A DNA stretch of 64,000 nt. It comes from Mya arenaria (lineage: Eukaryota; Mollusca; Bivalvia; Myida; Myidae). Each line of letters begins with the position of its first letter. The stretch's first letter is position 1. Position numbers and translations under genes: made by a program. A model generated the notes under the pieces. It was not told the DNA's origin and made no database searches. It worked only from the letters and a program-made list of their open reading frames with translations. Of the stretch, positions 17,401 through 63,881 are shown in pieces. The DNA lies in the NCBI RefSeq assembly GCF_026914265.1, contig NC_069126.1:41823237-41887236 (forward strand), written 5' to 3'.

Positions 17401-20373
17401 AGTTAAAACTTGCCTAGTCTTTATTCGGTTTATTACAAAGTAGATTATAATAATAATTATTAACAGTAAGGTTATCATCTACGGTTATAATAGATTCTTT
17501 AAAAAGGAATAAAAATAATGGTTAAGTGTACTGTCTTTAGACTGGAAATTTTGATTACTGATATATGTTTTGTGCACACACACACACACAAATTGTATTT
17601 TAGATATGTTCACTTATATTCTTGTGTCAGGGGACAGCCAGCTTACAGTTGGCAGCCAGCTGGCAGCCTGTTGCCAGTTAACAGTTGGCAGCCAGCTGGC
17701 AATTGACAGCCGGCTAACAGTTGGCAGCCACTTTATACTTAGCCATGTAGAGCCCAGCTCGCCCTTTGGCAGCCGCCTTGTGTATGGCTATATGACAATA
17801 AACCTTTGTCTTTTCTGGTCTTTTGACCCTCCAGTTGTTAACAAAGGGATGTGTTTTAGTATAACTTCCCGTAAGTGCAAGTTAAGAGGTGAACTCAAAA
17901 TGGCTTTATTTTGATGTAAGTGGCATCTAATGAAGGAGCTTTCCCCCATCAGTGTATTGAATGTGGTTGAACATGATATCTGTGTGTTTTGCAGTCAATT
18001 GCTGGCCGAATGAGAGTGGCAGTGGCTGTGACGTGAACATTGAATATGAGCTCGAACAAGAAGACCTGGAGCTGAATGATGTTCAAATCACCATCCCCAT
18101 ACCGTGAGTAGTAATACAGGGAAACTCCCTGCTTGGATTTGTCTTCTTTCTGAATGCATATAGCTAGAGTGGTCTAGTGGTATAAGTGTCCAACTCTCAC
18201 CCAAGAGGTTGTGGGTTCGAACCACATAAGGGGTCCTTTCTCATGCCCTCTCAAAACCGACACAGTACTGGTTTCTGGCGAAGAAAAGGACCCAAGAGTG
18301 ATTCTATTAGCTATCGGCTTTCGTCACAATCGAGCTAAAATGAATCAGTATATATTCGTGCATATACCTAGCTTAAAAAAAAGAGTTATGAAAGGATACC
18401 CTGTCCTTTTTTGGTAGTCTGCCCTCATGGAGATGAGCATGTGCACCTTCTGCCATCATAGAATTAAATGCTGACTTTCAAATATTTGGGTTTTTTTTGA
18501 TGCCCACTGGGTTTCTAAACTAAACTGTAAGACTTAATAACACGAATATATGTGTGTATCCCTGTAGATCTGGTGTTGGGGCGCCGGTTGTGGGGGACTG
18601 TGATGGTGACTACACGTACGACAGTCGCAAGAACCAGCTCCACTGGACCTTGCCCGTCATCGACGCTTCCAACAAGTCCGGAAGTATGGAATTCTCTGTC
18701 AGCGGCCACCCAGATGACTTCTTCCCTGTTAACGTGTCATTTGTTTCAAAGAAATCTTATTGTGATATACAGGTGAGTTGAGTTTTGATTAAAAGCTGCA
18801 CTCTCACAGATTTACGGTTTTTACAATTTTTTTATTTTTTGTCTTGTAGTAAGCAAATTTTTGCGTAAATATCTGCAAACCAGTGATAAAAGACTGCTGG
18901 CAAAAGATCAGCTCTCAGATTTTCCATATTTCCTTTCGAAAATTAATGTTTAATGGCTAAAAGTGTTACTAACGGTTTAAGAAAGATGCTTAAAACTTCA
19001 ATTTTTAGCTCGACTTTTCGAAGAATAAGGAGAGCTATCCTAGTCACCTGAGCGTCGGTGTCGGCGTAACTACTTATGTTAAAGTTTGCGTACCACCTCA
19101 AATATTTTCAAAGTCCATTGACATATGGCTTTGAAACTTTGCACACTTGTTTAACATCATGCCCCCAACCTGTACACAGAAGACGGTAACTCTATCAAGC
19201 ATTTTGACAAAATTATTCCCCTTTTTCTACGTAGAATTTTCGTAAAAGTTTGCGTCGAACCTCAAATATTTTCAAAGTCCATTGACATCTGGCTTTGAAA
19301 CTTCGCACACTGTTCACCATCATGCCCCCAAGCTGTACACAGGAGGAGGTAACTCTATCAAGCATTTTGACAAAATTATGATGCTTTTTCTACTTAAAAT
19401 TGACGTTAAAGTTTGCGACCACCTCAAATATTTTCAAAGTCCATTGACATCTTTGAAACTTCGCAAGCTTGTTCACCATCATGCCCCCAAGCTGTACACA
19501 TGAGGTGGTCACTGTATCAAGCATTTTGACAGAATAATGCCCCTTTTTCGACTTAGAATTTACGTTAAAGTGTGCGTACCACCTCAAATGTTTTCCAATT
19601 CAATTTATGTAAATATCTCAGCACATCATGTATTGCATTGAAATCTAATAACAGTGATCCATGCTTTTCAATCCATACACTGAAAAGCGTCGGAGTAGTC
19701 GAGCGGGCTGTCTCTGTGACAGCTCTTGTTTAACTTAATAATAAAAAATCTGCGATCTAATTTTTTGTCAGCAGTCTTATATTACTGGTTTCCATGCATT
19801 TTCGCATAAATTTGCTTGTTCAAAGACAAAAAAAAATCAGTTGTCATAACCTTCAGTCCTAGAGAGTGAAGCTTTAAGAAGTACCAAAAGTTCAGCTCAT
19901 TTTATATTTCTTTATTGAAATGATGACAGGAACTTATTAAAAAACACATTTTATTTTAAGTTGAGGCAGACCACTTTGAATTATGGAAATAACTGTAAGA
20001 TATATCAAGAGATGTTTGTAAAACATGTATACCATCCAATTAGACATTTCAAATTAAATGTCTGTGAGGTTATTTAAGGAATCAACATGTCAGATCTAAC
20101 CTCTCCACCAAGTCTAAGGACCATAGGTTCAAGTATACACAATTTGATTGGAAAGGCTTATAAAGTTCAAGGTTTCTACGACCTTTGACCTTCTGAAATC
20201 GAAAATCAATATGTTTTTTGTTTTAAGAGTTCATTATTACAACGTAAAAGAAAGTTTACATTTCCCTTTTACCTTTTCTTCAGATTAGCGACTTGCGACT
20301 CTTAGAAGACGACTCACCAGCCAAGTACTCCTCAGAAGTGTGTTTTTATGTTGACAAATACGAAATTGTGTAA
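10610..20373 (+). CDS. ARCN1: Coatomer subunit delta (archain 1), complete, 12 coding exons
   Basis: Delta subunit of the COPI coat, which forms retrograde Golgi-to-ER vesicles. Exons: 10610-10612 (ATG only), 11371-11410, 12387-12610, 13350-13529, 13983-14188, 14652-14743, 15364-15436, 16452-16617, 17122-17269, 17995-18103, 18568-18772, 20284-20373. All introns are GT-AG and the phases join to an uninterrupted 511-residue protein, the human length. Residues 1 to about 135 form the longin domain ([40 protein letters not shown]). Residues 150-270 are a charged, Gly/Ser-rich linker, the least conserved part. From about 273 comes the mu-homology domain ([45 protein letters not shown]), ending VDKYEIV. 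The start is fixed by the conserved M|VLLAAAV junction. The 5' UTR extends into 10,357-10,609. Identification rests on recall of the human sequence. Confidence 0.97.
11271..11379 (+). repeat. Tandem duplication of the ARCN1 intron-1 acceptor
   Basis: Two copies, 53 bp each at a 56-bp offset (11,271-11,323 and 11,327-11,379), contain the pyrimidine tract, the CAG acceptor and the first nine exon bases GTACTGCTG. Only the second copy continues into the conserved reading frame. Use of the first would give ATG GTA CTG CTG TAG. The copies differ at a few bases (TGTGTTTTCGTTT versus TAAGTTTTCGCTT). Confidence 0.9.
11454..11481. repeat. (AT)n microsatellite
   Basis: Uninterrupted AT dinucleotides in ARCN1 intron 2. 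Confidence 0.9.
11612..11768. mobile_element. Near-perfect 157-bp hairpin in ARCN1 intron 2
   Basis: The arms TTAAGGAAT..ATTGCGGGGTTGATGTC and the inverse GACATCAACCCCGCAAT..ATTCCTTA pair along almost their whole length. They close on an inner stem GTGGAGTCC-GAA-GGACTCCAC. The motif GAACGCAATTG of the arms recurs inside a second palindrome at 12,140-12,161, so both may belong to one foldback element. There is no coding capacity. Confidence 0.75.
17632..17730. repeat. Short CAGTTGGCAGCCAGC tandem-like repeat
   Basis: In ARCN1 intron 9, AGCTTACAGTTGGCAGCCAG and close variants (GCCAGCTGGCA, AACAGTTGGCAGCC) recur about three times with a period near 35 bp. Intronic and non-coding. Confidence 0.6.
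18164..18360 (+). mobile_element. tRNA-derived SINE in ARCN1 intron 10
   Basis: The A-box-like TGGTCTAGTGG (18,170-18,180) and B box GGTTCGAACC (18,214-18,223) stand at tRNA-like spacing. Between them is an anticodon-arm-like hairpin (CAACTCT/AGAGGTTG). About 130 bp of non-tRNA sequence follows. There is no matching acceptor stem or discriminator, so it is a SINE head rather than a working tRNA gene. Confidence 0.7.
18378..18520 (+). repeat. Dispersed repeat R1, partial copy
   Basis: GATACCCTGTCC...CTGCCCTCAT...CTTCTGCCATCAT resembles the left part of the copies near 1,010 and 21,010. Confidence 0.4.
18792..19876. mobile_element. Palindromic repeat family P, copy 2, split by an insertion
   Basis: The left half (AAAGCTGCACTCTCACAGATT to about 19,001) and right half (from about 19,732, CTGCGATCTAA...GTCAGCAGTC, ending GAGAGTGAAGCTTTAA) together match the uninterrupted copy at 31,025-31,385. 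The gap is a separate element at 19,002-19,731. Lies in ARCN1 intron 11. Confidence 0.75.
19002..19731 (+). mobile_element. Tandem-core element nested in family P
   Basis: It starts TTTTTAGCTCGACTTTTCGA and ends GCGGGCTGTCTCTGTGACAG with CTCTTGTT. The core has four diverged units of roughly 160 bp (starts near 19,078, 19,243, 19,404, 19,563), each with ACCACCTCAAATATTTTCAA and GCCCCCAAGCTGTACACA or close variants. The architecture (short ends, ~160-bp core repeats, no ORF) resembles bivalve 'pearl'-type non-autonomous elements. The family assignment is inference. Confidence 0.65.
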
Positions 20374-24887: not shown

Positions 24888-26980
24888 TAGCTCACCTGTT
24901 ACTTTGTGACATGGTGAGCTTTTGTGATCGCCTTTTGTCCGGCGTGCGTCGTGCGGCGTGCGTCGTGCGGCGTGCATCGTGCGTCAACAATTTACTTAAA
25001 AGACATCTCCTCCTTAACCGCTGGGCCAATATTAATAAAACTTCATAGGGATGTTCCTTGGGTGGTCTTCTATCAAAGTTGTTCAAAGAATTAAATTCCA
25101 TGCAGAACTCTGGTTGCCATGGCAAACAAAAGGAAAAACTATAAAAATCTTCTTCTCCCAAACCACAAGGCTTAGGCCGTTGATATATGGTAGGTAGGAT
25201 CACCAAATGGTCCTCTACCAAGATTGTTCAAATTATGGCCCTGGGGTCAAAATTGGCTCCGCCCCGGGGGGTCATGGGTTTTCTCTATATGTTTATAGTG
25301 AAAACTTAAAAAATCTTCTCCTCTGAACTTACTTGGCCTAGAGCTTAGATATTTGGCATGATTCATCGTCTAGTGGACCTCTACAAAGTTTGTTCCAATT
25401 ATGGCCCTGGGGTCAAAATTGGCCCCGACCCGGGGGGTCATGGGTTTTCTCTATATGTTTATAGTGAAAACTTTAAAAATTCTTCTCCTCTGAACTTACT
25501 TGGCCTAGAGCTTAGATATATGGCATGATTCATCGTCTAGTGGACCTCTACAAAGTTTGTTCAAATTATGGTCTTGGGGTCAAAATTGGCCCCGCCCCGG
25601 GGGTCATGGGTTTTCTCTATATGTTTATAGTGAAAACTTAAAAAATCTTCTCCTCTGAACTTACTTGGCCTAGAGCTTAGATATTTGGCATGTTCATCGT
25701 CTAGTGGACCTCTACAAAGTTTGTTCAAATTATGGCCCTGGGGTCAAAATTGGCCCCGCCCCGGGGGGTCATGGGTTTTCTCTATATGTTTATAGTGAAA
25801 ACTTAAAAAATCTTCTCCTCTGAACTTACTTGGACAAGAGCTTAGATATTTGGCATGATTCATCGTCTAGTGGACCTTTACAAAGATTGTTCAAATTATG
25901 GCCTTGGGGTCAAAATTGGCCCCGCCCTCTTGGGGGGTCATGGGTTTTCTCTATATCTTTATAGTAAAAAAAATCAAAAATCTCCTCTGAACTTACGTTG
26001 CTTAGAGCTTAGATATTGGCATGATTCATCGTCTAGTGGACCTCTACAAAGATTGTTCAAATTATGGCCCTGGGGTCAAAATTGGCCCCGCCCCTGGGTG
26101 GTCATGGGTTTTCTCTATATGTTTATAGTGAAAACTTTAAAAAATCTTCTCCTCTGAACTTACTTGGACTAGAGCTTAGATATTTGGCATGATTCATCGT
26201 CTAGTGGACCTCTACAAAGATTGTTCAAATTATGGCCTTGGGGTCAAAATTGGCCCCGCCCCCTTGGGGGGTCATGGGTTTTCTCTATATGTTTATAGTG
26301 AAAACTTCAAAAATCATATCCTCTGAACTTACGTTGCTTAGAGCTTAGATATTTGGCATGATTTATCGTCTAGTGGACCTCTACAAAGTTTGTTCAAATT
26401 ATGGCCCTGGGGTCAAAATTAGCCACACCCCGGGGCTGATGGGTTTTCTCTATATGTGTTATAGTGAAAACTTAAAAAATCTTCTCCGAACTCACAAAGA
26501 CAAGTAACGTCTTAATTTAAACTGGATAACATATTTAGTACACATACCAATTTTCAATATGGGCCACATACAACAATTAATAACAATATACATATATAGA
26601 TACACACGTAAAATCAAGTAGTGACAAGAGCTTTGATATTTGGCATGATATATCATCTAGTTGACTTGTACCAATATTGTTCAATCTTTGGCCCTGGGGT
26701 CAAAAAATGGCCCCACCCGGGCGGTCATGGGTTTCCTTATATATGTATATGATGAAAACTTAAAAAATCTTCTTCTCCGAAACCAAAAGGCGAAGGCCTT
26801 AGATATTTGGTATGAAGCATCGTTTATCGGACCACTATTAAGATTGTTCAAACTTTAGCCCTGGGGTCAAAATTGGCCACGCCCAGTGTTCATAGGCTTA
26901 GGTTTCCAATATTTGTATATAATGGAAGAATGTGCATTATATGACAGGTGAGCGATTCAGGGCCATTTGGCCCTCTTGTT
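24888..26980 (+). mobile_element. 2.1-kb element with about ten ~165-bp core repeats
   Basis: The left end TTAGCTCACCTG is inverse to the right-end CAGGTGAGCGATTCAGGGCC, which is followed by ATTTGGCCCTCTTGTT. After a GCGTGCGTCGTGCGG stretch come about ten units of ~165 bp containing GTTCAAATTATGGCCCTGGG, GGTCATGGGTTTTCTCTATA and CTAGTGGACCTCTACAAAG. A non-homologous 140-bp stretch near 26,510-26,640 splits the array. No transposase is encoded, so it is non-autonomous. Open frames across it are by-products of the repeat. Confidence 0.75.
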
Positions 26981-30744: not shown

Positions 30745-33700
30745 ATGCCACGACAATGGATGCTTATATGCGCTCAACTTGCCGTACTCGAGTCTGGTAT
30801 GTTGGGTAAGAAAAATGCTCTGTTTCATATTAAACAACTTCAACTTCTTCTGCTACTTATACTTCTACAACAACTGCTACTAGGAATTTTTGTTATAATT
30901 CTTTTTTATGTGTATATGTGTTACTTTTAATGCTAAAAGAAATATAAAAAGCAATGTAATGAATATTTGTTTCTCCGGTTATGTTTCACGAATTGTTCTT
31001 AAAATTTCAAACATTTCTTTGCTTTAAAGCTGCACTCTCACAGGTTTACCGTTTTTACAACTTTATATGTTTTGTCTTTGAATGATCAAATTTTTGCGTA
31101 AATATCTGCAAACCAGTGATAGAAACCTGCTGACAAAAGATCAGATCTCAGATTTACATATATCCGTTCGAAAATTGAAGTTTTATGGCTAAAAAGCGTT
31201 ATTAGCGGTTACAGCAAAATGCACAAAACACCAAGTTTTAAACTTAAATATAAACATCTGCGATGTAATTTATTGTCAGCAGTATTATTTGACTGGTGTA
31301 CATGCATTTCCACATAAATTGGCTAGTTCCAAGACAAGAAAAAAATAATTGTCAAAACGTTCAATCTGTGAGAGTGCAGCTTTAACCTGTTTTTCCCCGC
31401 GTTTGTTAGCCATCGGATTGTCAACATTAATACTTAGATAAAGTCTAACTTGTAATATGTCGTTAATGAGGGTGAGATAAGTTTGCATCATGCATTTCAG
31501 CTCTTTTGGGCAACGTATGTGTAGCCAGGAACCCTTATGGAACATTATCAGTGGTAGGACCAGCTTTTGTGAACAGGGAGGTTATACTGAAGGCGACACC
31601 ATATTTTCCTTGGGGATGTGACGTAGAATGGAGATACATCATGAATGGTACAACAATATTCCAAACAATAAATGGGACAGATAAAACATATTCGGAGGAT
31701 GGTTCATTCTTTTTAAAATGGAACGCTTCTATTGAATACAACAGAACTGAAATCTACGCCGTGTGTTTAACAAACGCAACGATCGGAACACCCCTGATAA
31801 CTCTAAATATGAAAGGTATGTATCGTTGACTGTTTCAAGGCGGCTATGTCAACTTGAATTGATTTTGTCTTTTGTTTATTGTTTTTTGTTATTTGGGTTC
31901 ATGAAAGTATCCATACACAATGATGGGTTTTGTCACTGGGTTAGTCCATGTAATTTTCTTCGTATTGTGTTTGTTTCAGGTATTTATCTAACACATATTT
32001 CGGCTTTTTAGCGGTTCACATCAATTGACCCCTGACCTGAGGAATAATTCCAAATATAAATGACAACTGTTACTTCCCATTTTACTAAGTTGCTTTGTTA
32101 ATATGGTGTTTAAACAACTAAAAATAGAATATGATTTTGTTATGACGTTTTTTATTACTCAGATATAATTTATAGCTATTGATGGACATTGTGGAGCCCT
32201 CATGATTCTAAGTCCGGTTGCTCGAGGCACGGAAGTCAAAGTTGGATATTTTCCTTCTGACCAATCCATAAGGGGTCAAACGTTTACTAAACGAACATGG
32301 AAGAAAGACATGCATGAGTTCCAGCTACAAAAGGGTTCTTACGAAGAGAAACTATTTTCTGAGTATTTGTACATATTGACCATATTAAATTTCACACAAA
32401 ATGATGAAGGAACGTATTCTTTATATTGCAATTCGAGTGGCAACACGGGTTCTGTGCAGCTTCATATTTCAGGTACCATGCTTTTACTTCACCGGGTATT
32501 CTGGATTTTTAATATTTGTTTTGTATTGATACGTACTAACTCAGCTAAGAAAATGGAGGAGTCATATTAGCAAAAGAAGAAACTTGTTTGTAAAGTGATA
32601 AACGTTGTATTTTGACACGTTATATGGTATTTCATGTAATCAAAGGTTAAACGGTATTCAACGTTATTTTGTATTTGCGTTTTTTTTCAGAGCGACCGAG
32701 TTACCCAGTTCTCGGTCCAAAGTTTTCTGACTTTAATACAACAGAATGTATTTATGTTTATGTTGGCTCCGACTTGTATTGCAAAACTGAAAATGGAACA
32801 GAGCCTGTACAAGTATCACTTTTAATTGGCAATGATTCATTTGTTCTTGCTGAAAGCGAACAGAACAAAGGGTTTTACCTATTCAGTAACGTTCAACAAA
32901 AAATGGCTGGACTGTCGAGACTGAATGTGACATGTCAGGTTTCAAATGCAGCCCTTGAAACACCTTACGAAGTACACGGCGTTCTATGTAACGTAGGTAA
33001 GCAAGTTAGCGACACCTGATTCATTTTTGTGTGCTGGAAAAAGTATAAATTGTTTATAAAAAAATAATGCTGTAAACATTATTGTGTTTTAATTATAGAA
33101 AAAGGTAGCCTGCCTGTTCTAACAGTTCCTGAACAACTTCATGGAGAAAGATCTTCATCAATTTGTGAAGTGCGAAATGCTTTACCAGCGCCGGCAATAG
33201 AAATACGAGTTGACAAAGTTTTGCAAGCAAATGTTCAACAAATTGATTTATTCGATGGATCTTCTCATACGTTTACCAGCACAGCAACGATGACAAAGAC
33301 GAACACAACATGGAATGGACAACAAATGTGCTGTACGTTAAAAAGGAAGTTTGGTCTTGAAAATGTGTCAGAATGCAAAAACATCAGTATGAAATGTAAG
33401 TTTAACTCGGAGCGTATCGATTGTATAATCACGCGTACTAGTAAAAGTTGAAGCGGGACATTGATAATAGACATAACAAATTTAATTTATCTTTATTTTA
33501 TGTTTCAATTGTTGGAATATAAATATTATTTTAAGCAATTTGTATTTTCTGAACTAAAAATGGTAAAAATTATATTTATGAGTTTGTCTTATTCTGTGTT
33601 GCGATCCGCCGTTGGATCTTTCAATGTCCTTAAACACAATACATGTTTATAACAACATTTTCTCGATTTTCGTACAACTCGCAGTAAAGCCGCGACTGGT

Positions 33701-36700
33701 CATCTACTTTTTCTTTAAAAGGCACCCGTCTTCCGGAATATACTTTTATATTATGATGTCATATCTTCCATTCAAGCTGTTTTATCAACTAGTAACAGGC
33801 ATTAGATAAACAAATCTGTAAAAGTATAAAAACTAATCCATTCTCTTTACTGTGCGTTCCTTTTACTTTGTTACCTACTTAAATATGTATGCACTTCTTT
33901 GTGTATTAAGGCTGTATATTATTCTTTAAACGGATCCGTCATCCAGAATGTATTTTTATATTACGATATTCTTATACAGAGTATTTTACTCATTTACAAC
34001 AGTAATTAACAGTAGATGTCTTAAAAATATTGTTACTGTCTACGCTTACATTCAGGTGATCCGACTTTAAATCTGAACAAGACATCACCTGTCGATTTAC
34101 CTCCGAATAAAACATTGGTCGTTAAATGTACTGTGAATGATTGCAATGCTGAAGGGTTATGGACGCTTAAGTGGGAAGATAAACATAACTCTATTATAAA
34201 GACTTGCAACAAAACAGAGGAATGCCTATTAACACTGAATTATACGGGAGATGGTAAAAAGACGTACACATGCAGAGCATGGAAATCACTGTTTACTCTG
34301 AATATTTCGTTGACAGTTTCAAGTTCAATGAGTGATGGTTTGTAATTAACAGTTCAGATTTTAGATAAATGTAAGGGACTCATTTACGTTTTATAGGGGC
34401 AGGCATCGATTGTTTTTAATTTCATGTGAAATATGAACAAAATGATTGTTATAGTAATAACATATCATCAAAATAAGTGGCGCAATAGAAAATGGAATGG
34501 TTCTAGGCTTTAATTTACACAAAAAGTTCAAATGAGTTTCTGCCTGTTATAACAGTACGTGATTCATAAAATTTAAACAAATTGAATTCAAAATCTAACC
34601 CACATTAAACGGGTCCCTTTCAAATATTTCAATCTTACTAAAACAATCGTTTTCAGTTAGTCAACCCCATGAAAAGGACAATCAGACATTTTCTTCAACA
34701 TCCCGATTTCCTCTCAACAATATACTTATCGGAACAGGCGTTTTATGTGGACTCTGCATCTTGTTTATAATCGGAAGTAAGGATTTCGTTCCCTGGATGC
34801 TTTAATCAATTTAAACACTTAATGTAGTTCAGTTTTCTGCAAACAGTCACAACGTGCAGTTTTGAAAGGGTGGTGTTGTGTAATTATTTTTTCCAATGCA
34901 TTGACTAATGGTATCCGTATAGTCAGGAAAAAATAACAGAAACAGTTCTTTTGTTATTTTCTTATTTTCTCTTTTGCTTAGTTGAACATAACTAGTGTAA
35001 GGTATGATTAAAGTCTTGAAAAGGGCAAAATATAGGTTTCTGCCTTTTACTTTATTGCATGATTATGCTTAATTCACTTGATTTTAATCATAAAAAATAA
35101 AGCCATATAGTGCCTGTACAGATAAAATATATAAGCCGTTATAATTGATTTGTTTAATTAATAGATACGTGGCCAAGTATTTCTCAGTTACAACGCGCCA
35201 AAATATCGCTAACATTGGTTATTTTGTACAAAAATCATATGCTTTTTCTTCCTTAAATTCAAATGAGTTAAACATAATAATGCATTAAATATAAAACAAT
35301 AATTTGCCTTCAACATATATTGCGCCCCTTTAAAGACTAACTTACAGAAAACACAGGGCCAACATGGAAATATGAATGTTTCGTTCGAAAACGAATTAAG
35401 TGTGTCTTCATTTTATCTATCGTTTCAAATGTTATAACTTTCTTTGTTGTTCAAAGGCACTTCAAACAAAAGTATTCTATTAAAACTTATGTTGATTATA
35501 CTTTTCATATGAATAAATATCTTTTTAAGGATGTGTATATCTTAAACGGCGAAAGGTCAACGAAATCAACACAATAGAAATGTATGTATCAATTGTAATT
35601 TCGAATTAGTGATTTAGAATTCAAGATTTTTGTTAGATGTGACACCTTTGGATTTATTGAAATAATCATTGTTGATAAATCATGTTCTTCATTCTTTTTT
35701 ACGATAAAGCAGTGTAAACGATATTCGAGATTATTAAATACGACATACTCGTCTAAGTTCTTATTCCAGTAAAACAAATGAAATAGTTGTTGTTATTTTT
35801 CAGTGTTGAAAATCATAGGGGTAAGTTTCTATTGTTTAGTATTTTATACATAAATGCATGAATCCTTTCGATGCCCCTTTGAAACCGCGTTCTGCAGTCT
35901 TGCGGATACGTATGCTGCTTAATTTTGATTTTTTGCTAAAGGAGGGTTTATGACACAACATATCGAAATAAATTACATTTAAATATTTGAATCTAAACAA
36001 CGGTTTATGACATAACATATCGACATGAATTACATACATATCCAAATAATAATGATAATAATAATACAAATATGTATCCATTAGACAACTTACAGTAACC
36101 ATATACATGTAAATATTAAAAAATAAAAAAATAGCATTCTTTAAAGATGCAACTACTGGTAATTCATTTGATACAATATGCATGAGTTCAGTTTTGATTT
36201 GTACCCCCAAAACATTAAAATAAAGACAATTAATATATACTTTGATATTTATGATAAAAGCGTTCGATTACAATTGCATGCTGGCGAAATAAAGGTTTCA
36301 AGTTAAAAAAACAAACTGATTGATTGGCCATTGTTCACAGAATAGTTATCAAAAACCGCATACAATTTGCAAAGACAGAGATTTGGTATTTTATCTACAT
36401 GTAGTTCCATACGATTGGTTTTGTATCACTATATTCTAGTATGACAAACGATTTCCCTCCCAATTATTGACATCTTTAAATGATAGAAATTTATGATTCC
36501 TGAAAAAACAGACACCTCGTTGGACAATGGCGTGCTACACATAGAAACGGGAGGAGTCCAGTACGCAGTCATGCAGAGACAGGCGGCTACACAGAGGACT
36601 GGAACGCAGGTATCTCACTTCACTTTGAGAATTTTTCTAAGAGATTACTGCGATGCAATGCAAAATCAAAAGTACAAAGTACCTTCACCACCGACGTTCG

Positions 36701-37142
36701 ACGTGAAGGTTACATTCACCCTTATAGTCAACAATATAATTGCAAACATTAGAGCAGGTGCACAATCTTTTATAAAGACTAAATGTATCCTATATCTTTA
36801 TGTATCCAAGGGTTTTAACGTATCATGATATTTTACCAGATGCCATGCAAGTTAAACATACAAGTATCCTTTCTTCGATGAAATCCTTCATCGGTTATAC
36901 TAATGCTAACTGATCATATCATTTGGTAACTGTTACAATTAAATATATATTATATTTTTCAGCAACCACATGCTGGCGGTGGCCTAACGTACGCCGAGTT
37001 GGACATCAAGTTCCTACAGGAAGCTACCGCCAGAGTTCCGCCAAGAAAAAATAACACGCCGACGGAATATGCTGACATTGCGTTTTCCTCAACACAGAAA
37101 TCTGCTGAAGAAGATCATGTTTACCACAATACATCTGCGTAG
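30745..37142 (+). CDS. Ig-superfamily receptor copy A, ITIM/ITSM tail (complete)
   Basis: Unnamed type I membrane receptor. Exons: 30745-30796 (signal peptide MPRQWMLICAQLAVLESA), 31501-31815, 32176-32472, 32691-32996, 33099-33395, 34056-34337 (five Ig-like domains, one exon each, all phase 1), 34657-34776 (membrane span about 539-556, ILIGTGVLCGLCILFIIG), 35804-35820 (17-nt microexon), 36487-36609, 36963-37142. The phases join to 662 residues. D2 ends DEGTYSLYC and D5 has VVKCTV..W..TYTC, typical Ig signatures. D1 is odd, with only four residues from Cys to Trp (GCDVEW). N-glycosylation sequons are frequent. The tail's four tyrosines are Y588 (YAVM, PI3K-type YxxM), Y613 (LTYAEL, ITIM), Y639 (TEYADI, ITSM-type) and Y657 (YHNT, YxN Grb2-type). 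This suggests phosphotyrosine-based, probably inhibitory, surface signalling. The ligand is unknown. Confidence 0.85.
31025..31385. mobile_element. Palindromic repeat family P, copy 4 (full length)
   Basis: It runs from TAAAGCTGCACTCTCACAGG to CTGTGAGAGTGCAGCTTTAA with internal inverse arms. It sits in intron 1 of receptor copy A and is absent from copy B, so it arrived after the A/B duplication. Confidence 0.85.
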
Positions 37143-39540: not shown

Positions 39541-42500
39541 AAAAGAATTGTGATAGAAATGCCTCCCTTATATTTATGCGAAAAACTACAGAAACAAGCT
39601 CGAAATAGAAACACCTAAAAAGCGCAAGCCTTATCGGCGCTCCCAACACCACGACCGCTACCAACAAAGAGATCGCAACGAAACCTACGACAGTAACCAC
39701 GTAAACTTCAAATCGGCCTTTCACAGAGTCGATAATTACAACTTCAACAACGGACGACCACCGCGCGATCACGGCGGGCGGGAGTTACCATGACAACGCT
39801 TACAATGACAAACAACCGTTAACATGAGTCTTACTGGGATAGCACCAGAGAACAGGAAGAGGACGCCGACGACTGGGATCCTCAGCGCGACTCATGGAGA
39901 TGTGAAGATGACAGGGAGCTATAGTGATCAGATTCTTGACAATATCGTCTTAGATACATTGCGTCTATTTAATGTATTGTTTAAGCATGCAAGTTTATCT
40001 TTTTCTTATTGTATCTATGTTTTTAAACGTATTAAGTTGGAACTGCTGGGGTCAAATGTCCTCTGCGTACCCTCTAGCAAATATGTTAGATAAATATAAT
40101 GCTTATAAGTGAACACAAGCTCCTACCTAGATCTGCTGCATTTATGAACTGTATTCGCATGAATTATAACTGTTTCGCTAATGTCGACGAAAGTTTTGGT
40201 CATCTGAAGTGTCGGAAAGCTGGTACTGCCATATTATTTAAAAAATCATTGTCATTTAGTATTAACCAGGTATCATTTAAAGAGAACCATCGTATACTCG
40301 GAATTGAATTTAACTGTACAGATAGAATGCCATTGTATATGTTTGTTAGTATATATGTCCTCGTGTAATCACATTGAGTACTTTAAGTCAGTTTTAAGCG
40401 AGCTGCAATCGATACTCTCCCATTACACCCAGGTGGGGGATGTTGGCCGGGGATTTCAGTGGACATTATATATCAAACAACGATCGATGTGCAAATGCAA
40501 AATCTATCTTACTCACATACTTTATTGTACACAATAATCTATTATCTTTACAATAAGCAATTGGCGACAGCAACGGATGTACTTTTATCGACCATGTTCT
40601 TGTGGAATCTTCATCTATAAAATTGTAGCAGATAGCTCAGATACTTCGGACCACTAACCAATTATCTACAGCATAGCAGCGAAGTCCATTTTTAAGCCAA
40701 AGCCATCGCCTCGCATTGACTTGGCATGGAATAAGTGTACAAATGAACATCTAATGTGCTATCAACAAATCCTAGACAATGAATTGAATTGTATTCTCGT
40801 ATGTGGCAGTTCGAAATGTTGCCCTGATTTTCTTAACAGGATTATAATACACGCAGTACGATCAGCAAGTAGTGTACTCCCTGTAAGTCGCTTCAATAAG
40901 AAGGCTAAACCCTATTGGTGCGATGAAATAAAGGCGGTTCATACCAAGCGCGACACTTACGCCGGAAATGGATAGACGAGGGTCGTCCTAGGGGTATCTT
41001 TCATGACTCCTACCTAAGATATACGGAGGCCAAACGCACATTCCGAAGATTCCAGCGGACTAAACAATGTGAACAAGAAGAAAAGACAATTGACGATCTC
41101 AATAAGGCCGCCGAACTTGATTATAAACTAGTTTCGAAACTCCCTCAAAAACGAAACGACAGGAAGTCAGATGTGTGCAATGAAATCCTTGTTGAAAAGC
41201 GAACATGCATAAACGATCATGTTATTCAAGGCTTCGAGGCATATTTCATAAATGTATTTGCCGATCTCTTTGCACAGAACGAGACATATGTCAATGCAGA
41301 ATTCAGAATTAAAGCAATTAGCGAATAAGAAAGATAATGACATAACAAAAGAAATAACTTATACTATACAGCACAGTGAAGTTGAAAGTGCAATACAACG
41401 TCTTTAACTAAGGAATAATCCCGGAGTCGATGATATTCTTAACGAACATGTAAAACATGGCGGGAAAGTTATTATTAGAGCTCTGACAGTTCTATTTAAC
41501 TCCATATTGTGCAATGAGAGGACACCAAACGAATGGAATACTAGTTTGCTAATATCAATCTACAAAGGAAAGGGGAAAGTGAAGACCGATCCTAGCAGTT
41601 ACAGACCAATATTTCTCAGCCCATGTTTCAGCAAAAACTTAAAAAAATATGTTTGAACAGACCCAATTATTCAATAAAAAATAAACGCATTGCATTTCCA
41701 TGCGATCAGCAGGAAGGATTTTGCAAAAATTTAAGTTGTGTTACGATGGTGTTCAACCTGCCGGAAACTATCTATCAACAAATGAAACATAACAGCAACG
41801 TATTCGTAGGCAAGCTCGACCAAAAGGCTGCTTTTGACTATGTAAGGCACGCACGAAGGCCTTTTTCTTAAGATGGTACGATTTGGTTTAGTTGGAAAGG
41901 CATTACGGACACTAATGTCTTCATATCAAGACTTGAAATGTATAGTGAAAATGAACGGTAACACCTCAAAGAACATTTCTATACGGAAATCAGTCCGCCA
42001 AGGGGGCCTTCTTCCCACTTTTTATTATTTACTATACGTGGACCAACTACTAAAATATCTAGAAAACAGTTACCATGGCTGTACCGTATAATCAACCAAG
42101 GCCAGCAACCCTTCATACACAGACGACATAGCTCTGATAGCATTGTCTCCCCTCAACCTACAGCAAATGATTGGTATTTTACGGTCATATTGTCAGTCAT
42201 GGTGAATCGATATCAACGTGAACAAAATCTGAAATAATTGTTTACAGAAAGAAACGTAAACCTCCTAATGTCGCGATTATGTTTAGAAACAATATTACCA
42301 CACATACTAATTCGGCAAATCACCTGGGTTTAAGCAAACTTCGAACATGAAATGTAAACCTACAATAGAAACGAGATGTCAGAAAGCTAAAAATGCATTT
42401 TACGCAATGACCGCTCAAGGGGTCCATCCATATGGTTTAAATCCGCTAGTGTCTGCTGACCTGCATATCAAAATAATTATGCCAATTGTTCTATATTGTA

Positions 42501-43442
42501 GCGAATTGTGATATAATATTACCGCTAGTGACATTACTACCATCAATCGACCCCAACACTTTATTGTTAAGAAAATCCAAGGATTACACTTTTAAACTAA
42601 ATCTGATATGTGTGAGTCCATGCTGGGACATAACAAGTCATATTCGTCGGTTTTAATCAGAAAATTGTTGTTTTTACATCTACTTTTATGTCTCGACTCT
42701 AAAAGTAAAAGTAAAATATATTTTTAAGACGATAATTTCAATACGTCCAAGATGAGAATGTAACTTAAGGTTTTATACCATCTGTAAACTTTATTAACCG
42801 TGCTTTAATACACCCTGAACAAATACCATCAAGACACCAATGGAAAACTACAGTGAACTGTCTCGTACGTTCTAAACAAACCTTGCTGTGGTCAGATAGA
42901 ACTATGTCGGACGAAGATTTTAGACTTTTCAAAGTGTTACACCCAAATATTTCCAAAGCAATAGTGTATTATATATTTGACAGAAACTATTTCAACAAAA
43001 TACCAACGAACTGTCTTCAACGATGCTCCAACAGTGGTAAAGACGTTAATAACGTAGATATACACAGCGTATATGAATGCAGTGTACATGAACGGGATAG
43101 GTGGTGTTTCATCGATGACGTCACAGAACTTGACGTCAACCTTGCCCAAGAACTAGCATTAATGGACGGAGAACTCACAGTTCCTAACTACCAGCTGACA
43201 CGCAAACAGTTCTTGAGGCGATCGTATATGTTTATATATAAGTGTCTCAATGTCTAAGACATAAAGCTGTGTTTTAAAACACGTAAGAGGCATAATGTCT
43301 TTTGAACTGTAAACTTGTATTTATTGCCAAAGTGAAACGCTAATATGCTTATTTTGTACAGTATTGTCATTATTAGTTACTATTTGTATATAATATGAAT
43401 ATCATCACGTGTGGTAGAAATAAAGATAAGTTGAGTTGAGTT
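39541..43442 (+). mobile_element. Broken non-LTR retrotransposon (LINE 1)
   Basis: Order is as in two-ORF LINEs. A basic ORF1-like stretch (about 39,560-39,800) is followed by endonuclease remnants (39,960-40,700). A linker follows, then reverse transcriptase (about 41,400-42,240) with SYRPI, KLDQKAAFDYV, RQGG and the catalytic SYTDDIALIAL. The C-terminal part is at 42,440-43,257 (SDMCESMLGH, then a 134-codon frame). It ends AATAAAGATAA followed by (GTTGA)n at 43,420-43,442, a normal LINE tail. Many frameshifts and stops split the frames, so it is dead. The CR1/Jockey-like group is a guess. Confidence 0.85.
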
Positions 43443-43702
43443 GACATACTATATATAAAAAAACTAGGTATGTTTATCAAGGACTGTTAGGTAACGCCTT
43501 GGAATGGCCAGTAAAATGTAAATTTACTGGGGGGGGGGGGGGGTTGAACCAGTTTAAGTGCACATACCTCACTATTATCCCAACAATCCTAAATAACGAA
43601 AAAACGATAAAGGTAAATTTTATCAAAGTATGCATTATATTCTCAATAAATTTGAAAACGCATATGCTGCGTATATCGAACAGATTGCTTTAAACACACT
43701 TG
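43443..43702. other. Spacer between LINEs
   Basis: Includes a poly-G run at 43,530-43,545. No gene or repeat identified. Confidence 0.4.
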
Positions 43703-43905
43703 CAGTGAGCTCATGTATATTTATACATACGCAATCAGGTTTACGTTTACTTAGACACTAATTCATGTGTGTATGAGGTATGACCATTTTAGTCGGTATA
43801 ACTATCACTTAATACAACAATATAATACACAACAACAATGTTTCAGGTCATGAGACTTACCTAGTTATCAAATTTAAAAAAAAATGATGTTTACTTATTT
43901 TACCT
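43703..43905 (+). repeat. Duplicated block S2, copy 1 (left of LINE 2)
   Basis: Matches 60,641-60,840: AGTGAGCTCATG, ACATACGCAATCAGGTTT, CAACAATGTTTCAGGTCATG. The match resumes after the LINE at 45,982 (TATTCAGCTACAG), which defines the insertion. Confidence 0.75.
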
Positions 43906-45981
43906 AGTTGTTGCCAAGATTTTCACTAGACAAGGGAAGTAACACGCATCGTAATAGATTATTTGTTATGTGCAAGTCTACTTCCCTTAGAATTGCAAAC
44001 GGTCGCTTAGGCTCTGATTGTGGGGTAGGGAACTTTACTTGTTTTAATACAAACGGAGCGAGCTTAATCGACTATTTATTATTAGAAGAGGCAAATTTTG
44101 CCTTAATTAATAGCTTCAAAATCCATGACTTTAGCGAGTACAGTGACCATGCAATGTTATCGTTTAACGTGAAGTGTAATACGAATGTTATAGACCAAAG
44201 TGTTGAATATAATCATGAGAAAATATTTTGGAACGTAGATGAAAAGGAACATTATAGATCGGGCGTAATAGAGAAACTACCCGAATTAAATAATTTGCTG
44301 CGACATAACCTTAACAATAATGCGGAAAACATTAATCATATCGTTAATTTCTATTTTCTCTATTGTACGAGATGTTGCTGATCCATTGTTTGTTCAGAAA
44401 ATAAGTGCAAACAAGGGGTTTGAGAAATGTAATATAGCAGCACCAAGTGGTTTGATGTAGAATGTAAAAATGCAAAGATGTTGTATAGAAATGTTTTACA
44501 TGGATATAATTCATCCCGTTTAAATGTTGATGGAATCGAATTGTGTAGATTTAAAGCTATATACATGAGTATTGTAAAGAAGAAGAGAAGGCAATTAAAA
44601 TATAAGCGTTGTAAAGATTTTGAAAAGCTAAAAGCAAAGACACCGCGTGACTTTTGGCGGTATTTTAAGAGTAATGGTAGCTCAAGAACAAATAGTATTC
44701 CATAATCTGGTTTTTAATCGCATTTTGAAACGATGTTTTCTGAGATAAATTTACATGCAGAATCAGAAGAATTTAATAGGTCTCATGATTTTGTAATTTT
44801 AATCTTAATATACAGGCTTTGCATGGAAAGGCATTGAAAGCAATGAATACGTTGTTAAGCAATCTTAAGCAATACGAGACTATGCCAAAAGTAGCGTTAC
44901 AGCTATTCAATGTGTTTGTTTCCCTAATTGTTTCACATGAGTGTGAAGTTTGGGGCTTTAGTAAGTCTTAACTTTTGGAAAAAAATCATCTTAAATTTTG
45001 TTAAACATTACTTGATGTTAGACAATCCACTAGTAAAGTTGCTGTATACGGAGAGCTAGGGCGTTTTCAACTGTATGTATATAGATATATTATAATAATT
45101 AAGTTTTCGTTCAAGATGTATCAAACAGACAACATTATTTTGAAGGCTATGTTATTAAATGACCATTTGAGTGTTGAAACTAATAAACCAACCTGGTTTG
45201 CTAACGTAAAGCAAATGTTATCAAGGTATGGGTTTTTAGAAGTCTATGAAAATGTTGTCAATGTTTGAACAAAGAGTAATTGATGAATTTATGCAAAAGT
45301 GGCAGGAAGGGATAAATAACAATGGTGTACTAACCTTATATGTCCATGTCAAATGTTCACTTGATATTGAACCGTATTAAGAAAACATTATTTCAAGACA
45401 CCTTAGATTTGCCCTTACCAAACTATTCGTGTCTGCTCATAGTCTGAGAGTCCAAACAAGAAAGTATGGCTAAAATAAAATTGAAAGACATTTACGTGTA
45501 TGCCAAATTTGTAACGTAAATGTTATCGAAGATGAATTCCATTTTATCCTTATTTGTCCTTTTTACAAACAAATTAGAAAGAAATATATAAAGCGTTATT
45601 ATAGACTACGACCTAGCATGTTTAAACTTGTTATCGCCATCAGGAAATAAATGTTTATGTTAAGTAAATATATATACGAAGCTTCAAAGGCACGTTCAGT
45701 AAATTTATGCAATGAGATTTGTATCTAAGATTTATACCACGATTCTCATTATGTTACTATTCACTATGTTTTGAACTAAACACTATCTGTCAATTATATT
45801 TGTATAGTGAACATGCTTTATATCCTTTATAATGTGAAACTTATATATTCCTTATAAGATCCATCCTATGTACTATTACCTTATGTCTTATAGTTTGATA
45901 TGTTAAAATGTACTTATATGTCACAAGAAACTATGTAGTTTACGTGAATAGAAATCTGTTCTGTTCTGTTCAGTTCTGTTC
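43906..45981 (+). mobile_element. Broken non-LTR retrotransposon (LINE 2)
   Basis: It is 5'-truncated, starting in the endonuclease C-terminus (LRIANGRLG, FTCFNTNGASLIDYLL, EYSDHAMLSF, to about 44,180). An endonuclease-RT linker follows (AKTPRDFWRYFKSN). The RT core is missing and sequence resumes at about 44,810 in the C-terminal domain (GELGRFQLYVYRY, QTDNIILKAMLL, EDEFHFILICPF-like). It ends in a (TTCTG)n tail at 45,950-45,978. Several stops and shifts show it is dead. It is a different family from LINE 1, judged by tail and C-terminus. Confidence 0.8.
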
Positions 45982-49522: not shown

Positions 49523-56765
<7,243 letters not shown>

Positions 56766-57949: not shown

Positions 57950-58758
57950 CCAGTTCCTGTCACAAGTAGGTAAAACCTTTTGAATGGAAGATATGATAAT
58001 ATATACAGCCGAAACTCGCTATGTCGAACTATAGTACCTTGAAATATTTCCAAACCACTTCGATATAGTGAGCTTTGACTGTAAGAATATTCAGGAAGAT
58101 GGATCGCTTAGAAAGAATAAAATAAAGAAGAAAAAAACAACAGGCTCGGTTTGTTTGGGATTGTGAACGAGAAAAGTCGAGAAAATAAATACGAACGAGT
58201 ACGTACGAGAAAACATACGTTGTTTAGCCGGACTTTGCCAACGTGTTTTTCTATCGCCGGTGCAGGGATGGCATCGGGCACTTCACAGATTGTTGTCGAG
58301 CTTTCTCATGGTTCATGAACTGTTAGAACGGGCGGATTTTCATCTTCTATAGTTGAAACAGAATGATTTAACAACATTCAATATTATGCAAGATCCAATG
58401 ATTTTGACTTTCACAAAATAAGGAATAATAGCTGGGCATTTTGATTTTTTGTATTTGCTTACCTACGTTACATAGAATGCTATGCATTATAAAACATGTT
58501 TCAAGGGCTGAATTAGAAACTTGACATGTCAAATTCCGTCTTGACAGTACAGCCATTTGTTGATGGACGTTAGTAAATCGGTGCAACCCTTTGTTTCCTT
58601 TGCGTTCAACAACAACAAATGAATCCTGTCCTAGATAAAGTAGCACTTTCCGGTATCGGTTACATACTCGGTTTTGCAATGAATGTCGTAGTCTCCATAA
58701 ACGTGAATACATTCTGTTGTATGGAGACTTTGGTCCAAGAACTGAGTAATTTGGTCTC
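57950..58758 (-). pseudogene. Decayed Ig-receptor copy (D3, D4 and intron remnants)
   Basis: On the minus strand, 58,758-58,463 matches Ig domain 3 (RPNYSVLGPK, then FTNVHQQMA, LTCQVSNSALET, SILCNVG). An 8-base gap relative to the functional copies (TGACTTTA missing) shifts the frame and the CAG acceptor reads CAT. A D4 fragment lies at 58,346-58,206, truncated and with a stop soon after its start. A piece of the D4-D5 intron lies at about 57,950-58,000. D1, D2, D5, membrane and tail exons are absent. A host-gene relic, interrupted by a mobile fragment at 58,004. Confidence 0.85.
58004..58090. mobile_element. TIR-like fragment in the receptor relic
   Basis: TACAGCCGAAACTCGCTATG with CTTCGATATAGTGAGCTTTG. 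Same end type as 9,637. It breaks the homology of the relic with the copy A intron. Confidence 0.45.
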
Positions 58759-61403: not shown

Positions 61404-63881
61404 ATGGATAGGTGCTACCTGTTTTCTCTTACATTTTATCTAAGTAAGCGTATTCTTTTACAAATCTTGTTTAAATATATATATTTATATCATTTTAGCT
61501 GTTGTGTACTTAAAAAATTGGAAGTAGATCTGTTCATTAAAAAGAGGATTGGTAAGTTGTACGGTAAAAGTAATAGTTAAAGTGGGAAATAAATAATTTC
61601 TTTTCTTGATAATGAATTTGAAATAGTATTAGAATAAATTTATTAGCAATTAGAAAATGATGCATGTAAAAGAACCCCAGTTTAATGTTTAGTATTACGT
61701 AAACATTTTCAAAATTGCTCTTATTATTTCAGTATGTTTCTATTTTAACACATTGTTTATAAATTTGACTTGTGTGACATTGTATACATATATAAAAAGG
61801 TGACTGTCCATAATTGCACTTGATAACTTCTCATTATTGAGGGTGAAATGTGTTTTTGTTATTGGTTTGCAACCGCTATTTCAGTTATGTTTGGGTGCAT
61901 CTGTGCAGATAGGAACCAATATGGAATGATATCAGTGGTAGAACCAGCTTTTGTGAACAGGGAGGTAACACTGAAAGCAACACCGTTCTCTCCTTGGGGA
62001 TGTGACGTAGCATGGAGATTCATAATGGATGGTAACACAAGATTACAAACAATGAATGGGACAAATGCTAAAATATATTCAAAAGATGGGTCATTCTTTT
62101 TAAAATGGAAGGTTTCATCTGAATACAACGGATCTAACTTCTACGCTAGCTGTTCAACAAATGAAACAATTAAAACAAGCATGACATCTTTAAATATTAC
62201 AGGTAAATATCACTGATCGTTTCAAGGCGGTGATTGAGTTTGTTGTATTTTCTTTTCTCTTTCTTAGGGTTAGGGTTCGTTTGGATTTTTGTTCATTGTT
62301 TTCTCCTGAGAAAATTATGGTAGATTTTTTGCTACTAATTTCTTTTGTGCAATCATTTGTTTCTTTGCATATATTTATGAACGCATATTTTCGTTTCTTT
62401 TGGTAGTTGAATGAATACAAATATTAAATGGGTAAAAGTTCGAAAAGTAATTATTGTTTGGTCAAATCAATTAGTTTACATTTCAATTGTTTTATGAATA
62501 TTTCAAAATATTAATTGATTCATAGATGCCAATTGTTACTTTTCAATTTACTTAGTTGCTTTACGGATAAGTGTTCTATACAGTAAAAAATTACAAATTT
62601 GATCTGATTGTAACGTTTGCAGTTATTTTTAGTTATAAATTACAGATATTGTTGGACAATGTGGAGCTCTTATAATTCTAAGTCCGGTTGTTCGCGGCGC
62701 GGAAGTCAAACTTGGATATTTTCCGTCTGACCAATCTTTAGAGCGCCAAATAAACACTGCACGAACATGGAAGAAAGACACTAAGGAGCTACAGCTACGA
62801 AATGGTTCTTACGAAGAAGAAATGGTTTCTGAGTATTTGTACATATTGACTATATTCAATTTCAATGAAACATTTGAAGGCTGCTATACTTTAAATTGCA
62901 ATTTAGTTGACTACACGAATTTTGTACAGCTTCATATTCCAGGTACCTTGGTTTTACTTCATCGAATATTCTCATTTTTTAAAGATTGGTTTTGTTTGAT
63001 ATATCATCTTGGAATAAAAGGACATTTAAGTTAAAGGATGACAGTTTTTTTTTCCAGTAATAAATGCTCGAGCAGCAATGTGATAAACCTTTAGTTTTTA
63101 TTTGCATTTTAAATGCTTATATTGTATTCGAAGCGTTTTAAATCTTTGTGTTGTTTACAGAAAAACCAAGTTATCCAGTTCTCGGTCCAAAGTCCCCTGA
63201 CTTTATAACAACAGAATGTATCTATGTTTATGGAGGCTCCGACATTTATTGCAAAACTGAAAATGGAACCGAACCCGTACAAGTGTTACTTTCAATTGAA
63301 CAGAAGTCTTTTGTTCTTTCTGAAAGCCACGAAAACAAAGGGTCGTATCGATTCCATAACGTCCATCAACAAATGGCTGGACTGTTGAGACAGAACGTGA
63401 CATGTCAGGTTTCTAATTCAGCCCTCGAATCACCCTACGAAGTGCACGGCACTTTATGTAACGTAGGTAAGCAAATAGTAGACACATAATGACAAGCTAT
63501 GATTCGGTATTTTGTGGAGTTTACATTTAAAATCTTGTATAATGTTGAATGTTGTTAAGCGTTGTGTTTCAACTTCAGAAAAAGGTAGCCCGCCTATCCT
63601 AACAGTTCCTGAATTCCTTGATGGAGAAAGCTCGACAGCAATATGTGAAGTGCACAATGCTATCCCGGCTCCGAAAATAGAACTTTACGTTGATTCAGTC
63701 TTGCTAGCGGATGTTCAACAGACTGATTCATTTAATATATCTTCGTATACCTTTACAAGTCGAGTAAAGGCGACAAAGACTTATACAATGTCAAATGGAA
63801 AAGAAATGTGTTGCACCAGGCATAGTAAACATGACTTTGGTTTTAAAAGTGTGTCAATATGCCTAAATATCAGTATGAAAT
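61404..63881 (+). CDS. Ig-superfamily receptor copy C, 5' part (runs off window)
   Basis: Third apparently intact family member, 5' exons only: 61404-61443 (putative signal exon, MDRCYLFSLTFYL, with IMFGCICA from the next exon), 61885-62202 (D1), 62646-62942 (D2), 63161-63466 (D3), 63579-63881 (D4). The Ig exons have the same lengths and phase 1 junctions as copies A or B and no stops. D1 keeps AFVNREVTLKATPF and PWGCDV. D2 has EGCYTLNC in place of EGTYSLYC, adding a cysteine. D3 keeps NVTCQVSN, and D4 keeps EMCC and NISMK. The D5, membrane and tail exons lie beyond 64,000, so whether it has the ITIM/ITSM tail is unknown. The signal exon is less certain than the Ig exons because its sequence is unlike A and B. 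Confidence 0.8.

Follow-up and report, generated by a model that had tools for sequence, protein, structure and literature searches.

A soft-shell clam receptor gene with ITIM and ITSM-type tail motifs belongs to a very large immunoglobulin family with two alternative tails

We analysed a 64,000-nucleotide window of the soft-shell clam, Mya arenaria (C5:41823237–41887236 of its own genome of 1,216,080,610 bases in 18 contigs, C5 being one of these), around a gene, here termed copy A, that encodes an immunoglobulin (Ig) receptor with tyrosine motifs in its cytoplasmic tail. Copy A belongs to a very large clam family whose members share domains Ig1–Ig4 and carry one of two unrelated cassettes of membrane span and tail, termed class 1 and class 2. 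An earlier reading of the same stretch (the original prediction) had overlooked membership in so large a family with two alternative tail types. Copy A is a real, well-made receptor gene with 11 exons on the plus strand (30745–37142). All internal boundaries are GT-AG, and the spliced frame is open over 671 codons followed by a stop, with none ahead of position 37142. The protein consists of a short signal peptide, five domains of ~93–105 residues, a single membrane span (NILIGTGVLCGLCILFIIG), and a 115-residue tail; the ectodomain is encoded by five exons, each phase 1-1, with one exon per domain. The signal peptide and single span, judged from sequence and hydropathy, and the Ig domains make it a type I receptor of the immunoglobulin superfamily, as originally predicted. 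Ten exons had been assigned, where we count 11; the tail exons are joined in frame to the Ig exons, as had been supposed. The features of copy A, all on the plus strand, are as follows.

30745–30796, plus strand: exon 1, signal peptide MPRQWMLICAQLAVLES; open reading frame (ORF), GT donor, phase 1
31501–31815, plus strand: exon 2, domain Ig1, C1-set-like by eye, fold unconfirmed; GT-AG, phase 1-1
32176–32472, plus strand: exon 3, domain Ig2; GT-AG, phase 1-1; I-set/V-set below cut-off
32691–32996, plus strand: exon 4, domain Ig3; GT-AG, phase 1-1; Ig-like sandwich model
33099–33395, plus strand: exon 5, domain Ig4; GT-AG, phase 1-1; C1-set and C2-set_2 below cut-off
33603–33668, plus strand: relic, in intron 5, of an alternative membrane-proximal Ig exon (Ig5'); 59% identity over 22 amino acids to Ig5' of copy D (E 7e-4)
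34056–34337, plus strand: exon 6, domain Ig5; GT-AG, phase 1-1; Pfam V-set_CD47
34657–34776, plus strand: exon 7, stalk and membrane span (NILIGTGVLCGLCILFIIG), mean Kyte-Doolittle hydropathy 2.31; RCVYLKRR comes next
35530–35581, plus strand: exon 8, juxtamembrane tail with Y560
35804–35820, plus strand: exon 9, a 17-base micro-exon, equal in size in copy B
36512–36609, plus strand: exon 10, VQYAVM (Y597)
36963–37142, plus strand: exon 11, LTYAEL (Y622; immunoreceptor tyrosine-based inhibitory motif, ITIM), TEYADI (Y648; of the immunoreceptor tyrosine-based switch motif type, ITSM), VYHNT (Y666), stop

The five domains differ in how well their Ig character is supported. Ig5 matches Pfam V-set_CD47 at 24.6 bits against a cut-off of 21, which is also passed in copies B and E; the match covers 34056–34337 in copy A and 52617–52889 in copy B. 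Vertebrate CD47 binds SIRP-alpha as its ligand, and the match probably reflects just a shared Ig subtype. Ig2 and Ig4 match Ig families below the Pfam cut-off, the top sub-threshold match of Ig4 being DUF1036. The Pfam scan gave no match for Ig1, and no Ig match and one chance-level non-Ig match for Ig3. The predicted structure of Ig3 is an Ig-like sandwich (best of five models from a three-row alignment at a predicted local distance difference test score, pLDDT, of 74.5; the rest at 69.8 to 49.6), and the AlphaFold2 model of Ig1 has no usable fold (pLDDT 32.6), leaving its C1-set likeness to the eye. The five Ig-like domains first proposed thus hold for Ig5 by Pfam and for Ig3 by model, while Ig2 and Ig4 stay sub-threshold and Ig1 is unsupported.

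Copy A has close relatives nearby. An intact inverted paralogue, copy B, lies 12 kb away with an open frame and the exon structure of copy A, followed in the window by a pseudogene fragment and the start of copy C.

49523–56765, minus strand: copy B, intact inverted paralogue, 670 amino acids, 11 exons
56714–56765, 55459–55776, 54709–55005, 54223–54528, 53821–54123, 52617–52889, minus strand: copy B exons 1–6
52169–52288, 51354–51405, 51128–51144, 50026–50123, 49523–49699, minus strand: copy B exons 7–11
53474–53575, minus strand: Ig5' relic with one stop, in copy B intron 5
58216–58757, minus strand: pseudogene fragment with Ig3 and Ig4 pieces (48% and 59% identity), a stop in the Ig4 piece
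61885–63881, plus strand: copy C, Ig1–Ig4 exons, boundaries by eye; the gene extends beyond the window end

The tail of copy B reads YAVV / LTYAEL / TEYADI / YHNT, and its intron 1 contains a long run of a trinucleotide (TAC/TGC, minus strand; window 56050–56460). Flanks of 250 kb were examined, 100 kb to the left of the window and 150 kb to the right. The left flank held no relative at E ≤ 0.01. The right flank contains the remainder of copy C, with its span and a class-1 tail (LAYADL / TEYADI) at C5:41888567–41890885, plus five further genes, D to H. Copies A, B, C, F, and H share the class-1 tail type; D, E, and G have Ig1–Ig4 in common with class 1, yet a different span (VLYALSGTILLLLVTTLTVLLF in E) and tail. 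Similar ectodomains are thus joined to different tails, which is the architecture of a paired-receptor family; a pairing of activating and inhibitory members is putative, by analogy. The 52-base signal-peptide exon of copy A encodes a peptide similar to that of copy B, and similar peptides precede E, F, and H; this exon was not found for C, D, and G in the sequence examined. The Ig4 exon of copy F is truncated.

The genes of the cluster are mosaics. For copy E, the nearest relative in Ig1 is F (85%); A and B take this place in Ig4 (88%), B in Ig5 (94%), and G in the tail (97%). Copy C is nearest to D in Ig1 (86%, tied with G), Ig2 (84%), and Ig4 (80%); D and F tie in Ig3 (88%), and F is nearest in Ig5' (88%) and in the span (90%). 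G and E are 80% identical in Ig1, where G is nearest to C (86%), and 92–97% identical from Ig5b to the tail. The alternative exon Ig5' has an uninterrupted reading frame in C, D, F, and G, persists as a relic ahead of Ig5 in A, B, and E, and gives a weak match with stops in H (E 0.007). Site patterns agree: in Ig1, 11 sites group E with F versus 3 and 4 for the alternatives, and in Ig4, 12 sites group E with A versus 2 and 4. Because nearest neighbours change along the gene and site patterns concur, exchange or conversion of exons between tail classes has very likely occurred.

The family extends far beyond this cluster. A search of the clam's own genome with the class-1 tail exon gave 146 candidates, all of them scored and all matching at E ≤ 10; of these matches, 96 reach E < 1e-3 and 88 reach E < 1e-5. 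A single gene may yield two matches (C7:68360952 and 68361242 in this search). The 88 places, A and B included, fall on contigs C5 (40), C9 (23), C16 (17), C6 (4), C7 (3), and C11 (1). The class-2 tail gave 118 matches at E ≤ 1 among 122 candidates, with 90 at E < 1e-3. Ig3 has 310 candidate places; 150 of the 310 were scored, all at E < 1e-41, and lie on C5 (80), C9 (46), C16 (14), C11 (5), C7 (3), C8 (1), and C17 (1). Tails were assigned to Ig3 places on the same strand and within 12 kb, from 91 of the 146 class-1 matches (the 88 at E < 1e-5 and three weaker) and all 118 class-2 matches, by a rule that knew the 150 scored Ig3 copies. Among these 150 of 310, a class-1 tail follows in 56, a class-2 tail in 60, and neither in 34. 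Ig3 places with neither tail within 12 kb (for example, C9:75274796) may be broken copies or secreted forms, or may carry a tail of a third class. At C5:23081005 and 23095533 lie tails with 95 and 92% identity to that of copy A, the first reading like copy B's throughout, which means either that the whole cluster is duplicated or that a haplotype is uncollapsed. Copy numbers are possibly inflated by uncollapsed haplotypes or segmental duplicates, and several Ig3 matches tie in score, such as those at C5:22950824, 22970916, and 41981170.

Two further observations concern more distant relatives. Weaker relatives of the tail exon (29–41% identity) form tight groups at C2:28.3–29.4 Mb (best E 0.0018) and C5:72.9–74.3 Mb (2.5e-4), and are perhaps a related tyrosine-tailed family. 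Among 150 scored of 1919 candidates for the Pfam domain Ig_3 (PF13927), a hand count places 65 on the 80.8-Mb contig C5, spread from 0.1 to 73 Mb, some as far-apart pairs with equal scores; this spread is an Ig expansion wider than the family of ITIM-tailed receptors.

The class-2 tail is unrelated to that of class 1 and carries the motifs DTAYE..YDAV.. and ..HYDYVD....YIHAI. We compared 23 class-2 tails, namely 20 fetched from the 118 matches and those of D, E, and G, which are themselves within the 118. A YDYV-type motif is present in 22 of the 23, the end is of the YIHA type, and the broad ITIM pattern is matched in nine, where it reads as SHYDYV; no ITSM was found in the 23. Class 2 may be the natural candidate for an activating partner of class 1, by analogy with paired receptors.

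In the class-1 tail of copy A, all four motifs of the original prediction (VQYAVM, LTYAEL, TEYADI, and VYHNT) are present in the two exons at 36512–36609 and 36963–37142. Their residue numbers had been set 9 too low and are corrected here to Y597, Y622, Y648, and Y666, and the tail does not have exactly four tyrosines: a fifth, Y560, lies in RCVYLKRR at the membrane face, a position occupied by Cys in copy B, Leu in C and F, and Phe in H. When each tail was shuffled 20000 times, at least one ITIM plus one ITSM arose in 0.8% (A) and 0.6% (B) of shuffles, and four tyrosines in SH2-type (Src homology 2) motifs in 1.0% (A) and 0.3% (B). The motifs of copy A exceed chance, and their conservation across 65 paralogous tails is stronger evidence than the shuffles.

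These 65 class-1 tails comprise A, B, C, F, and H plus 60 fetched in order of E-value from the remaining 83 places at E < 1e-5; 23 places were left out, namely C5:68101149, which stands high in the list, and 22 that rank 63 or lower. Sixty-two of the 65 are distinct, and two with early stops (rows L048 and L065) were read through with X at each stop. An in-phase AG lies within 30 bases upstream in all 65, by a loose test, and 64 of 65 have no stop between the motifs. Y622 is retained in 63 tails and the ITIM consensus [IVLS]xYxx[ILV] in 62; Y648 is retained in all 65 and TxYxx[VI] in 62, a fit to the ITSM pattern from which we claim no SLAM-family membership. The most fixed columns are Y648, L630, L625, T646, L620, and Y622. 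The ratio of nonsynonymous to synonymous substitution (dN/dS) over the 65 tails is 0.29 in the ITIM codons, 0.25 in the ITSM codons, and 0.44 in the linker. Judging by these paralogues, the ITIM and ITSM-type motif are kept by selection, and as constants of class 1 both bear out the first proposal. The other two motifs are not general. YxxM occurs in one of five local class-1 genes, copy A alone, with YAVV in B, F, and H and YVVP in C; the exon-10 tyrosine itself is retained in all five, and VxYxxV in three of five. The terminal site is a tyrosine in 35 of 65 tails and a YxN in 20. The class-1 layout is thus VxYxx[V/M/P] upstream, an ITIM (LxYxxL), an ITSM-type motif (TEYADI) ~26 residues later, and a terminal YxN in some copies.

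These tyrosines could in principle be YxxPhi sorting signals for endocytosis or trafficking that dock no SH2 domain, an account to which we attach hardly any probability. YAEL, YADI, and YAVV also fit YxxPhi, but residues for which YxxPhi has no need are almost as invariant across the 65 tails as the tyrosines themselves: L620 (0.98), T646 (0.98), E647 (0.94), and D650 (0.91).

Copies A and B also allow coding and non-coding divergence to be compared. The two show 8 differences over 177 bases of exon 11, versus 147 over 978 bases of introns 9 and 10. Exons 2, 4–8, 10, and 11 have diverged less than the introns or flanks on either side of them, which does not hold for exons 1, 3, and 9. The A–B dN/dS of exon 11 is 0.30, and for the local genes pooled dN/dS values below 1 are found in the ectodomain exons as well as exons 10 and 11. 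Synonymous divergence between A and B falls unevenly along the gene (Ig1 0.36, Ig4 0.14, Ig5 0.21, stalk and span 0.25, tail 0.09), with a mild trend only in the introns; gene conversion between tails could be the cause of the low value there. These comparisons bear on the proposal that the family is mostly decaying, with many pseudogenes and an unexpressed copy A. The pseudogene at 58216–58757, stops inside 18 of the 88 class-1 tail places, and the truncated Ig4 of copy F speak for decay. It is nonetheless very improbable, since all 11 exons are intact in both A and B, most exons are less diverged than their surroundings, and pooled local dN/dS is below 1, the A–B value for exons 8–10 being an exception (see below).

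We consider it probable that copy A is a type I, inhibitory-type Ig receptor of the large two-tailed family, whose ITIM–ITSM pair would dock an SHP-type phosphatase. In known ITIM/ITSM receptors, a Src-type kinase phosphorylates the tail, the ITIM–ITSM pair docks a tandem-SH2 phosphatase, and nearby activating receptors are damped. By the same scheme, once a ligand is bound on a blood cell, the class-1 tail would meet a Src-family kinase and be phosphorylated at its ITIM and ITSM tyrosines, which together would form a docking site for an SHP-type phosphatase through its tandem SH2 domains. The phosphatase would then dampen activating receptors, probably including class-2 siblings with related ligands, and YxN in some copies may add a Grb2-type adaptor. 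We infer the kinase, phosphatase, inhibition, cell type, and ligand of class 1 by analogy. The inhibitory surface receptor of the original prediction is therefore upheld in its architecture and ITIM/ITSM motifs, with inhibition itself a matter of analogy.

A different function could be served by the same motifs: copy A might act in adhesion or recognition and use its tail tyrosines to recruit Grb2, PI3K, or SAP-like proteins that activate the cell, in which case the ITIM label would mislead. Motifs of the ITSM type can signal either way, activating or inhibiting; YxxM is present in A and YxN in 20 of the 65 tails, and the oyster receptor CgIgIT2, with five Ig domains, is described in PMC11999971 as activating via ERK. 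The motifs that would recruit such partners are nevertheless the inconstant ones, YxxM being limited to one of five local copies and YxN missing from 45 of 65 tails, while the LxYxxL-type ITIM and TxYxx[VI] are the most conserved, at 62 of 65 each; we regard activation as unlikely.

Several observations weigh against reading copy A as inhibitory or its motifs as strongly constrained. The motif of CgIgIT2 is called an immunoreceptor tyrosine-based activation motif (ITAM) in PMC11999971, so tyrosine tails of bivalves need not all inhibit. On the class-2 side, no canonical ITAM was seen by eye in the 23 tails, and the span is without a charged residue. Constraint is uneven: A–B dN/dS is 1.30 in exons 8–10 pooled, so the proximal tail is loosely held, and exon 11 gives a dN/dS of 0.62 when the five local class-1 genes are compared together. 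The 65 tails were found by similarity to A and are mostly top-ranked, so the sample favours conserved tails. The tyrosine codons are nearly uniform (TAC in 62 of 65, TAT in 63 of 65), and such low synonymous change means that recent duplication or gene conversion contributes to the conservation.

Elsewhere in the window, an adaptor medium-subunit domain (PF00928, E 4.3e-12) lies to the left of the cluster at 18524–18778 on the plus strand. Upstream of it, plus-strand ORFs at 12350 and 13296 have no Pfam match; they resemble coatomer subunit delta, and we take them to be an ordinary neighbour. Between copies A and B, ORF pieces at 40600–44700 (plus strand) presumably derive from the reverse transcriptase of a non-LTR (long terminal repeat) retrotransposon, which they resemble; two ORFs at 42769 and 43908 have no Pfam match. 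A tandem array at 25200–26500, with a unit of ~165 bases by eye, contains GGGGTCAAAATTGGCCCCGCCC.

Vertebrate paired receptors include LILR, KIR, SIRP, FCRL, and CD300, whose activating partners use a charged span residue and ITAM-bearing adaptors. The clam family resembles them in its shared ectodomains, alternative tails, clusters, exon exchange, and ITIM-plus-ITSM spacing. Unlike vertebrate activating partners, clam class 2 has an uncharged span and a tail with its own tyrosines. Siglecs, another point of comparison, are marked by an N-terminal V-set domain with a sialic-acid-binding arginine. Oyster CgSiglec-1 is, like copy A, an Ig receptor of a bivalve and is reported to inhibit apoptosis, phagocytosis, and the release of cytokines (by a title cited in PMC5877582), but by description it has two I-set domains, as opposed to five Ig-type exons and an Ig1 with no Pfam match in the clam. 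Oyster IgIT (Crassostrea gigas), by a title cited in PMC11999971, 'inhibits the antimicrobial immune response', with inhibitory signalling reported for haemocytes, and CgIgIT2 has five Ig domains, one span, and the tyrosine motif noted above (PMC11999971). Compared by these descriptions, copy A is likewise a bivalve type I receptor with five Ig-type exons and a tyrosine tail; unlike CgIgIT and CgIgIT2 as described there, the clam family is large and paired, with exchanged tails. Given oyster IgIT, CgIgIT2, and CgSiglec-1, Ig receptors of inhibitory type were already known in bivalves. In other phyla, Hydractinia Alr and Botryllus FcoR are allorecognition-locus receptor genes with ITIM and other tyrosine motifs, and FcoR members vary in carrying an ITIM or a hemITAM tail, according to PMC12065747. 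Unlike these, the clam has two tail classes, well over 100 genes, and several chromosomes involved.

In a literature search that covered few subscription papers, and is weak to that extent, we found neither a paired-receptor family of bivalves nor any report of a protostome family this large in which two exchangeable tails share one ectodomain. Term searches of the available parts found no mention of 'immunoglobulin' in PMC10663159, and none of immunoglobulin or ITIM in PMC11978232 and PMC8905726. The core idea of the original prediction was right, two of its four motifs are not general, and the paired multigene family is the larger story.

A hallmark of innate lymphocyte control in vertebrates is the pairing of inhibitory with non-inhibitory receptors built on a common ectodomain scaffold. 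If the pairing is true, this solution arose, or was greatly expanded, independently in a protostome. A bolder proposal, which we offer as doubtful, is that the family is the clam counterpart of the leukocyte receptor and natural killer complexes: ~150 to 300 tail-swapped paired Ig receptors, clustered on several chromosomes, that would serve self or missing-self recognition by haemocytes and might be a barrier, or a failure point, for contagious cancer. The soft-shell clam carries a transmissible cancer, so the acceptance or rejection of foreign clam cells by haemocytes would be directly testable through this family.

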